Shown one piece after another: positions 12,449-34,609 of a DNA stretch of 64,000 nt. The first letter of the stretch is position 1; each line of letters starts with the position of its first letter. Below the pieces are notes generated by a model. It worked only from the letters and a program-made list of their open reading frames with translations. It had not been told where the DNA came from and searched no databases. The translations under genes were made by a program, and so were the position numbers. This DNA comes from Olsenella profusa F0195 (GTDB lineage: Bacteria > Actinomycetota > Coriobacteriia > Coriobacteriales > Atopobiaceae): contig NZ_AWEZ01000067.1 of assembly GCF_000468755.1 (NCBI RefSeq), positions 1-64,000 on the forward strand, written 5' to 3'.

Positions 12449-12624
12449 GGGAGCGAAAGGGCCCCAAGTGCGTGCCGACATCGAGGCGCAGGGTGGATTC
12501 GTCGGGGAGTCGGGGGCAACCCAGCGCCCTCGCGGACCTCGATCCTGGGCTTTCGTCGCTCGCGGGTGTCGCCAACGCGCCGTGGGCACGCAACCGAGCA
12601 CGCACTTGGGGCCCTTTCGCTCCC
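12449..12624. repeat. Palindromic element A (family with GGGAGCG...GTGCGTGC ends)
   Basis: A 176-bp element with a 27-bp perfect terminal inverted repeat (12449-12475 and 12598-12624; outer end GGGAGCGAAAGG, inner end CAAGTGCGTGC). The interior, read on the minus strand, contains AAAGCCCAGGAT and CTCGATGTCGG, blocks shared with element C, so this copy is in the opposite orientation. A GGCGGCAT stretch just outside is also shared with element E. No gene is inside. It separates secY from adk and resembles a MITE or a REP-type repeat. Confidence 0.75.
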
Positions 12625-17470: not shown

Positions 17471-17541
17471 GTGACACTCCTTGACTCTTGGGGTCTTAAG
17501 CACGGGGTTGGCCACTGTTCGGTTACCCTCGCACCTCCTGG

Positions 17542-17615
17542 CCTGGCATGCCAGGAGCCATATGTGCCTGACCTGGTCGAGACAGAATCGTCCCCACCCA
17601 GTCATACGGATTGTA
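17542..17615 (-). promoter_or_regulatory. Candidate promoter and palindrome before rplE
   Basis: On the minus strand TACAAT (17615-17610) stands 140 bases before rplE, resembling the -10 cores of pth and pyrE; the -35 region is poor. Between it and the gene lies a perfect 14-bp palindrome CCTGGCATGCCAGG (17542-17555). Because a terminator follows rplX, a promoter in this 500-base stretch is needed to express rplE through secY. This is the best candidate seen. Confidence 0.4.
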
Positions 17616-17786
17616 ATGGTACGCGTTTGGGAAAGCGATTGCCAGCGGGCATGGCCTGCATCCACCCTCCCCGTGGCAAATCCACAATTGCCAGCCCTGT
17701 CGGCCCTGATGAGCCCCCATCGCGCCCCGCCCTTCCCATGCCTGCAGCCCCTGGCGACAGGCAGGGATCCGTACTCTGGCGGTGCG

Positions 17787-17983
17787 GGGAGCGAAATGGC
17801 CCCAAGTGCGTGCTGGCCTCGCGTCCCATCCCCGCCAGGAGAGCATCCAGCGAGCCCACATAGGGAAAGGAAATCTTCTTTCGTTGCAAAAACAACGCTT
17901 TGGCCCAGCTGAGCGCACCGATCTGCACCTTCTAGGGACCCAACACCCGCTATGCAGCACGCACTTGGGGCCATTTCGCTCCC
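17787..17983. repeat. Palindromic element B, on the rplE side of the inserted gene
   Basis: A 197-bp element with a 28-bp perfect terminal inverted repeat (17787-17814 and 17956-17983; outer GGGAGCGAAATGG, inner CAAGTGCGTGCT). The ends are the same as in elements C and E, but the interior is different from A, C and E and less GC-rich, with AAAAACAACG inside. It lies about 190 bases upstream of the inserted nuclease-like gene. Confidence 0.75.
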
Positions 17984-18172
17984 AATCGCTCACTCTAGGC
18001 TATAACTGCGCGTCGATCAATCCGGGAAAGAACCATACACCTCCTGTCAGACACGTGCAGCAATCCACCTTTCTTTAAGGTGCCGCTCAAGGAACCACTG
18101 AGCGAGTAGGGCTTTCCCCTCCATGCATCCCCTATGGTCTTTGTACTCTGCCAGATGAGCCGGGGGGTGCCC

Positions 18173-19345
18173 ATGATTGTCGTCTCACATGAGAGTGCGC
18201 TTGCCCTGTGGCGCTCGACCGCCGAAGAGCCGCGGGGCATTGACGTACACGCATGTGATGGGATCTTCAGCCCCGTGTTGGGTGCTGGGCAGAGGATCGA
18301 CCGACGCGCAGGCGGGGCACGGGCCACCTGTGGCTTTTGGCAGCGACATCAGCGAGAGCCTGATCCTCAGTACCAGTTAAGCCCCCGTGCATGGCCCGGG
18401 AAGCAAGCGTCCCTCACCGCAGGCGCGTGCCGTTGTGCCCTGGGAGAGCTACACCACCTGCGCCACGCGATCGAGGTCGATGGCATCACACATGTGCTCT
18501 GCCCCTCTCGGTCTGGACGCACCGACGTGCCTGACATCAAGGCGCACCTGTGCACGAGGAAGCTTTCCGGCAGGGACCTCTACGTCCTCACGGATGGCGT
18601 GCTCGTCTGCAGCCCCGAACTCACCCTCCTTCATCTAGCGCGCGGAGCCACCCAAGCCAAGGTTGCGCTTCTGGCAACAGAACTCTGCGGCCTTTACAGC
18701 CTGGATGAGACGACACGGGATACTGGCGCGGGGTTCAAGGGCAGAAAGGCACCCCTCACACAGCCGCGTCTCATCGCGCACATGCTCGATCGTCATCCGG
18801 GTGCCCCGGGAAGTCCACTGCTGCGTTGCGTGCTCCCATTTGTCGCACCCTATGCCGCCTCCCCCATGGAGGCCAAGATTACCCTGCTCCTCTGCCTCCC
18901 CCGAAGGTGGGGAGGGTACGGTCTGCCGCTCGCCAGCCTGAACGCGTCCATAAGGCTCTCGCCTCAAGGCGAGGTGCTGATGGGGCTCCCCGCCATTGCG
19001 GGTGACCTCAGCTGGCCCCAGTCTCATGTGTCCATTGAGTACGACAGCACGGCCGCGCATGGCATCAGCATGCGCGGCACATGGATGACGCACAACGACG
19101 TCAAGCGAACTATGCGTGAGGTCGAGCGACGTCGCAAGCGCGACGAGACGAGGCTCTCGGCCCTCAGTGCATCGGGTTGGCAGGTGTATCCCCTGGTCGA
19201 CACCACGGTGCATGATCGCGAGGCACTTGACGCCGTCGCGCGTGCCGTCGCCCGAAAGCTAAGGAGAAGGCTCAAGCGGGACACGGCGGAGTCTCTGGCG
19301 CATCAGATGCGTCTCCGAAAGGAGCTCGGGTTCGAGCGCTCATGA
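18173..19345 (+). CDS. Uncharacterised protein with AbiEi-like N-terminus and PD-(D/E)XK/DUF559-like C-terminus
   Basis: A plus-strand gene inside the minus-strand spc operon. ATG 18173 follows GGGGGG at good spacing (the frame is open from 18134), giving 390 residues. The middle (PSRSGRTDVP, LYVLTDGVLVCSPELTLLHL, LLATELCGLY) resembles the AbiEi-like proteins common in Coriobacteriia. The C-terminal third resembles a PD-(D/E)XK fold of the DUF559/Vsr kind: Glu233 (SPMEAK), LPRRWGGYGLP, Asp278 (GDLSWP), then VSIEYDS with Glu289 and Asp291, and a GWQVYPL strand. Lys of the ExK motif is replaced by Asp, as in several DUF559-like lineages. No signal peptide or membrane span. Palindromic elements B and C bracket it. 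A nuclease role is an inference. Confidence 0.6.
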   Translation: MIVVSHESALALWRSTAEEPRGIDVHACDGIFSPVLGAGQRIDRRAGGARATCGFWQRHQREPDPQYQLSPRAWPGKQASLTAGACRCALGELHHLRHAIEVDGITHVLCPSRSGRTDVPDIKAHLCTRKLSGRDLYVLTDGVLVCSPELTLLHLARGATQAKVALLATELCGLYSLDETTRDTGAGFKGRKAPLTQPRLIAHMLDRHPGAPGSPLLRCVLPFVAPYAASPMEAKITLLLCLPRRWGGYGLPLASLNASIRLSPQGEVLMGLPAIAGDLSWPQSHVSIEYDSTAAHGISMRGTWMTHNDVKRTMREVERRRKRDETRLSALSASGWQVYPLVDTTVHDREALDAVARAVARKLRRRLKRDTAESLAHQMRLRKELGFERS

Positions 19346-19375
19346 TGTGATGTTTAGCCATACGATGGCGGCAGA

Positions 19376-19560
19376 GGAGCGAAATGGCCCCAAGTGCGTG
19401 CTCGGTTGTGTGTTCATGACGCGTCAGCGGTGTCCACGGATGGCAAAAGCCCAGGATTGGGATTTGCTGAGATTCGTGAAGGCGGCAGATGGCTCCCGAT
19501 TTCCCGATGGGGCCGCCTTACGTCTCGATGTCGGCACGCACTTGGGGCCAGTTCGTTCCC
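19376..19560. repeat. Palindromic element C, on the rplX side of the inserted gene
   Basis: A 185-bp element with terminal inverted repeats at 19376-19401 and 19534-19559 (24 of 26 positions pair). The interior has GTCCACGGATGGCAAAAGC followed by CCAGGATTGGG, shared almost exactly with element E and, inverted, with element A. It starts 30 bases after the stop of the inserted gene and ends 11 bases before the terminator that closes rplX. Confidence 0.75.
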
Positions 19561-19570
19561 TCAAGAACAC

Positions 19571-19602
19571 AAAAGGGTGCCCCGGTCTCAGCCGGGGCAC
19601 CC
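19571..19602 (-). terminator. Strong terminator after rplX
   Basis: On the minus strand GGGTGCCCCGG (19602-19592) pairs perfectly with CCGGGGCACCC (19585-19575) around a six-base loop, followed by TTTTGTGTTC. It lies 27 bases after the rplX stop, in what is normally the middle of the spc operon. It should therefore end the S10-proximal transcript there. Confidence 0.85.
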
Positions 19603-19628
19603 AGAACGTTCGCCTATGGGATCAGGAG

Positions 19629-34433: not shown

Positions 34434-34609
34434 GGGAGCGAAATGGCCCCAAGTGCGTGCCCAGGCACGTGCCCATGGCACGTCGACGACGTCCACGGAT
34501 GACAAAGGCCCAGGATTGGGATTCGCGAAGGCGCCAGATGGCCCCCGGTTTCCCTGTGAGCTTGCCTTGCGCCCTGACGTCGGGACGCACTTGAGGCCAT
34601 TTCGCTCCC
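34434..34609. repeat. Palindromic element E, rpoC side of the pilus locus
   Basis: A 176-bp element with inverted ends at 34434-34462 and 34582-34609, differing by one substitution and one extra base. The interior contains GTCCACGGATGACAAAGGC, CCAGGATTGGGATT and GGCGCCAGATGGC, in the same orientation as element C. It lies between the rpoC terminator and the pilus operon promoter. Confidence 0.75.

Follow-up and report, generated by a model that had tools for sequence, protein, structure and literature searches.

The insert between rplX and rplE

The ribosomal protein genes rplX and rplE are ordinarily neighbours in the spc operon, which is among the most conserved operons of bacteria. Their separation in Olsenella profusa F0195, an oral/gut actinobacterium, by more than 2 kb of DNA, including an opposite-strand gene and two inverted repeats, raises the question of what this DNA is and how it is accommodated within a ribosomal protein operon.

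In the 64-kb stretch of DNA analysed here (the window), the spacing between the two genes is 2,158 bp (17471-19628). The upstream transcription unit ends with rplX (L24; 19629-19955, minus strand), which is immediately followed by an intrinsic terminator (19575-19602, minus strand) with 11 base pairs, ten of them GC, and a TTTTGTGTTC tail. Reading on in the direction of the operon there is an inverted-repeat element of 184 bp (element C; 19376-19559), a plus-strand gene for a 390-residue protein (18173-19345), a second inverted-repeat element of 195 bp (element B; 17788-17982), approximately 300 bp that include a structured leader, and then rplE (L5; 16910-17470, minus strand), with which the downstream transcription unit begins. 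The plus-strand open reading frame begins with an ATG at 18173 that is preceded by a G-rich stretch resembling a ribosome binding site. The arms of elements B and C are 26-29 bp long with the consensus GGAGCGAAATGGCCCCAAGTGCGTGC, and the two arms are fully complementary in element B and 92% complementary in element C (24 of 26 positions); the middles of the two elements are unrelated.

The initial annotation of this region noted that rplX and rplE are split by a 2.1-kb insert with a plus-strand gene, and this is borne out by a second genome of the species, which has the same 2,158-bp arrangement and a protein that is 99% identical. As that genome is an independent assembly in one contig, the doubt that the insert might be an assembly artefact can be set aside.

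The rplX-rplE junction in the Atopobiaceae

The rplX-rplE gap is wide in nearly all of the sampled Atopobiaceae, ranging from 226 bp to more than 7 kb with cargo that differs by species. In about half of the family genomes the distance is 226-505 bp, and in the rest it is 0.8 kb to at least 7 kb, the largest values being lower bounds where no rplX lies in the 5-6 kb examined. One family genome (G034) has just 86 bp, and outside the family the distance is 85-177 bp in six genomes representing five other families of the order; in a further family of the order (f10), rplX is likewise absent from the stretch examined next to rplE. By our own reading of the sequences, the cargo includes genes for surface proteins of great length, for small YGYGYG proteins and for a dehydrogenase-like protein, as well as members of the nuclease family described below. 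Within the genus of O. profusa itself, the junction is occupied by a gene for a 1,689-residue surface-type protein in G001, in G003 by 7 kb of DNA that includes a homologue of the window gene, and in G004 by 425 bp only.

Surface-type proteins of 1,581-1,689 residues, dehydrogenase-like proteins and YGYGYG membrane proteins are encoded at junctions within the ribosomal protein cluster at loci L084, L085, L087, L091, L093, L095, L098, L099, L101 and L104. Genome G043 has two equal-scoring rplE matches 0.9 kb apart (C1:597588-598136 and 598525-599073), apparently a tandem duplication or a feature of the assembly.

The 100-190 bp immediately upstream of rplE are conserved in the genus and contain two hairpins, GGCTCCTGG..CCAGGAG and GTGCGAGG..CCCCGCAC, followed by a TTAAAACCCC-like stretch. 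This leader lies at 17500-17559 (minus strand) in the window, is conserved in the family, and occupies the corresponding position in 29 other Coriobacteriales loci. Across 30 genomes, 10 of the 12 pairs have changes on both sides and 93.6% of cells are paired; neither value is reached in any of 500 shuffles, and every slid control is lower. No Rfam family matches the leader, and a search of Rfam over the insert revealed no known RNA, with ftsZ-DE scoring 27 bits against a gathering score of 72.2. The leader is a candidate new ribosomal protein leader RNA, and it may be an L5- or S8-type autoregulatory site.

The terminator after rplX and the conserved structured leader before rplE together indicate that the spc operon is divided at rplX/rplE in this family and that the cargo lies in the space separating two transcription units. 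The expression problem posed by the insert is thus largely solved, and rplE would be expressed without read-through of the insert if the leader marks a putative promoter of its own. This family-wide division explains how a break of 2-7 kb is tolerated. A recent interruption of an intact operon is not supported by it, nor by the length and variability of the junction within the family or the presence of a sister gene in the same junction (see below). No clear target duplication was found.

A predicted Vsr-like nuclease

The family to which the 390-residue protein belongs is large, with hundreds of members, and fast-diversifying in the Atopobiaceae; homologues (E ≤ 1e-10) are present in 132 of 140 family genomes, often with 5-15 members each, and there are about eight paralogues per genome. 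On its own, the window protein is not recognized by any Pfam or NCBIfam model. A profile built from 56 homologues matches PDB entry 3R3P ('Mobile intron protein'), which we take to be the homing endonuclease I-Bth0305I, with an E value of 7.5e-4, and individual members match the Pfam families MTES_1575 (PF18741; 19 of the 56, best 8.8e-8) and DUF559 (PF04480; 12 of the 56, best 1.4e-5) in the C-terminal part of the protein. An AlphaFold model (pLDDT 84.7, pTM 0.84) has its best credible Foldseek matches to Vsr (1CW0 and 1VSR; probability 0.92, E 0.24-0.36).

Positions S230-P-x-E233, N257, D278, E289, H296 and R327 are invariant or nearly so in the alignment, an E and the D being invariant and a further E, the H and the R nearly so, and the key positions of the Vsr-like domain are E233, D278, E289, H296, D324 and R327. 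These conserved E, D, H and R residues fit an active Vsr/EDxHD centre. Both the fold and the catalytic positions agree, at the level of remote similarity, with the Vsr/EDxHD-type nuclease superfamily, and we conclude that the protein is predicted to carry a Vsr-like (EDxHD) nuclease domain. The MTES_1575 domain has itself been described as a novel Vsr-fold REase (PMC3710099).

The protein is not a Vsr mismatch endonuclease proper, as the cut-off of the NCBIfam vsr model (97.85) is not passed; the window protein has no match to this model and the sister protein scores 13.6 bits. Residues 105-169 have a weak AbiEi-like match (PADLOC, E = 0.0026). No neighbouring gene is shared across 61 loci, and there is neither an AbiEii gene nor a conserved transposase among them.

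Inverted repeats accompany the nuclease genes

The repeats flanking the gene in the window are not peculiar to this locus. We scored inverted 11-mers no more than 300 bp apart in the 300 bp past the gene at 62 loci from across the family, with the other genes of the same loci as controls, and found them 3' of the nuclease gene at 38 of the 62 loci as opposed to 11 of 149 control genes (Fisher test, 5e-16). When the controls are restricted to those with a matched noncoding flank, the count is 3 of 39 (Fisher test, 3e-8). Inverted repeats are present on at least one side of 49 of the 62 homologues, and on both sides of 15, as in the window; in about one in five of the homologues examined, no repeats could be detected. 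Most of the repeats are on the 3' side (60% of loci), with 17-22% in the promoter region.

The repeat sequences vary from gene to gene, each group of genes having its own motif, and the motif follows the gene version. An inverted 9-mer is common to 11 of 26 gene pairs with protein identity of 60% or more, to none of 124 pairs at 35-60% identity, and to 3 of 1,176 pairs below that. We found no description of such an association in the literature on Vsr-like, DUF559 and AbiEi genes and on Olsenella repeats.

Dispersal and structure of the elements

The arm sequence is present in eight copies in the window, where none is expected from shuffles, and in 26 copies in the genome, 13 in each orientation, with none for the reversed control. 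With one additional diverged pair on contig C43, a total of about 15 elements was found in the genome. Four of these are within the window, a region of ribosomal and RNA polymerase genes, and all four lie in noncoding gaps; besides elements B and C there are two copies of 174 bp, one in the secY-adk gap (12450-12623) and one between rpoC and a gene for a von Willebrand-type surface protein (34435-34608).

Dispersed copies accompany the matching version of the gene for the three motifs at which copy number and gene version were compared. The window element, in its exact core paired form, is found only in its own species among the 140 family genomes. G003 contains 133 copies of the motif of its own gene, whereas its four congeners contain none. 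In the genus that we designate g33, the motif GAGGGTATGTACACC has 75-122 copies in the four genomes whose homologue bears it, three copies in one congener with a variant motif, and none in four other congeners.

The two arms of an element change together. In the 15 elements of O. profusa, 19 of 36 non-consensus cells are matched on both arms, compared with 9% in shuffles and a level attained by none of 5,000 (examples of paired departures are TTTT/AAAA, ATTC/GAAT and AAAG/CTTT). The lengths of the elements are also regular. They fall at 163, 174-175, 184-185 and 195-196 bp in spite of several unrelated middles, so that the steps correspond to one helical turn, and for seven lengths picked by hand as having unrelated middles, phasing this good is seen in none of 5,000 random sets of lengths. 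Elements of G003 are likewise regular (31, 41, 64 and 56 bp), as are those of g33 (21-22 and 96-97 bp, with a few of 117-119 bp).

History of the insert and its elements

All 12 of the O. profusa elements that were tested are at identical sites in the second strain of the species, with no empty site among them, and there is thus no sign of recent movement within the species. In that second strain (genome G002) there is about 2.0 kb of extra DNA at the left flank of the site of the 34435 element (C1:425933-427893), and about 0.39 kb adjoining the site of an element on contig C45 (C1:2474288-2474984), both of which are possibly further insertions.

Differences are seen between species in g33. 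At site L268, G094, G099 and G104 carry an element that is lacking in G100, whose flanks are nearly identical; at site L271 it is G099 that lacks the element, and G094, G104 and G100 that carry it. The g33 species thus differ in the presence of elements, which are gained or lost as units. A clear target duplication is not seen at either site.

A 390-bp segment on contig C17 at about 76.2 kb (L018 1429-1821), far from the operon, is a 78% identical duplicate containing the rplX terminator, element C and the last 100 bp or so of the nuclease gene. It is an old copy of the unit in which the gene has decayed. The window gene and the gene at the G003 junction are sisters (SH-aLRT 100), and the latter is in the same junction, in the opposite orientation and with unrelated repeats. 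From this we conclude that the gene is probably an old resident acquired before the two species parted, or that there was repeated entry into the junction, and that the repeats have turned over. The suggestion that the gene and its palindromic elements form one unit is therefore sustained as to their association, by the repeats beside homologues, the C17 duplicate and the gain and loss of elements in g33, but not as a recent mobile insertion.

A proposed gene-repeat partnership and its alternatives

With modest confidence, we interpret the insert as a resident copy of a pair specific to its lineage, made up of a Vsr-fold nuclease gene and an inverted repeat that its product probably recognizes. 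The nuclease would bind and bridge the paired arms in a complex lying on one face of the DNA, and may nick or cut the arms when these are extruded as hairpins or exposed during replication, which would allow the non-autonomous elements to be lost, moved or copied elsewhere. The gene itself would persist because it is surrounded by its own elements. In the ribosomal operon the pair would be nearly harmless, the family having already split spc at this position and the gap taking varied cargo; little harm is expected because transcription terminates after rplX and restarts behind the leader of rplE. If such a nuclease cut the sites dispersed through its own genome, harm would follow unless it were limited to single-stranded DNA or extruded hairpins. 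The helical register of the arms favours looping of double-stranded DNA, whereas their co-variation favours hairpins, and no single simple model covers both.

Several other explanations account for parts of these data. The repeats beside the gene could be operators through which a defence- or toxin-like nuclease regulates itself, the dispersed copies being the work of recombination or of an unrelated transposase. AbiEi binds inverted repeats and represses abiE through them, and the weak AbiEi-like match, the position of the repeats next to the gene, and the inverted, helically phased sites suited to a DNA-bound looped regulator are all in keeping with this idea. We nevertheless think it unlikely, as the repeats are chiefly 3' of the gene rather than in the promoter region and there is no AbiEii-like or other common partner gene, and it leaves unexplained both the 75-133 dispersed copies tied to the matching gene version and the co-variation of the arms at non-conserved positions. 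The phased repeats could instead be landmarks kept by the host for chromosome architecture or repair, recognized by a domesticated site-binding protein with a nuclease fold, for which the helical phasing, the noncoding positions of the four window copies and the retention of sites between the two strains could be cited. The likelihood of this is smaller still; the different motifs of some eight paralogues in each genome, the turnover of motifs below 60% identity and the gain and loss of sites between species are unlike a stable host function, and the catalytic residues are conserved.

Two inverted copies bracketing the gene, as for the 15 homologues with repeats on both sides, would also be expected of a composite transposon in which elements B and C are the IS-like ends and a 1.77-kb unit, measured to the outer arms, jumped recently into an intact operon. 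This is very improbable given that neither the elements nor any conserved neighbouring gene encode a transposase, that the middles of B and C are unrelated, that the sister orthologue occupies the same junction with unrelated repeats, and that the junction is split throughout the family. It is also conceivable that the gene and repeats are unrelated passengers, both collecting in tolerant intergenic gaps, since the rplX-rplE gap accepts diverse cargo and some control noncoding flanks do have inverted repeats. We give this the least credence of all, because the excess of repeats at nuclease genes over control genes, the sharing of motifs in step with protein identity and the genome-wide presence of motifs according to gene version largely refute it.

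If the pairing of nuclease and repeat is correct, it could extend well beyond this locus. A plausible though tentative proposal is that the Vsr-fold paralogues, about eight per genome across the Atopobiaceae, constitute a new class of gene-repeat partnership in which each copy disperses and co-evolves with a helically phased inverted repeat of its own, an independent counterpart of the REPIN-RAYT system. Confirmation would mean that a way of life in which a resident enzyme gene is accompanied by tiny non-autonomous repeats arose twice, here with an unrelated nuclease, and each family would offer dozens of natural enzyme-motif pairs for working out the rules of DNA recognition.

Comparison with known systems

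The protein shares with I-Bth0305I (3R3P) and Vsr (1CW0, 1VSR) a nuclease core, by profile and fold, and the E, D, H and D positions, but it is larger, with extra N-terminal domains, and is encoded by a free-standing gene beside repeats with no intron or split intein. A third of the family members match MTES_1575, although the window protein falls below this model and that of DUF559. The HEPN, transglutaminase and wHTH fusions of MTES_1575 are not seen here, and the literature that we found describes no cognate repeats for known members of either family. The likeness to AbiEi, of type IV toxin-antitoxin systems, is the weak match in the middle of the protein, which differs in its fusion to a nuclease, in having no AbiEii toxin neighbour at the 61 loci, and in repeats that are mostly 3' and dispersed.

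RAYT transposases are thought to be responsible for the spread of REPINs. A REPIN is a REP doublet that forms a hairpin, and a RAYT is a REP-associated tyrosine transposase; REPINs show compensatory changes between their arms (PMC3116915). The elements described here similarly have two conserved inverted arms at constrained spacing, compensatory arm changes with the potential to form hairpins, and many dispersed copies; each family of repeats is linked to a cognate gene beside it, and the presence of elements varies between related genomes. The system resembles REPIN-RAYT but is not a member of it, because the predicted enzyme is a Vsr-fold/PD-(D/E)xK-type nuclease and not an HUH (Y1) transposase. 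It differs further in having many paralogues per genome, most with their own motif, and in arms that are about 50-200 bp apart and in helical register. The elements of about 141 bp in g33 (G094 L262-L277) carry the motif twice at each end, at a spacing of 22 bp, and their conserved asymmetric core (CGTTCTTCTCGGC...CTGACCTGCG) is found in both orientations.
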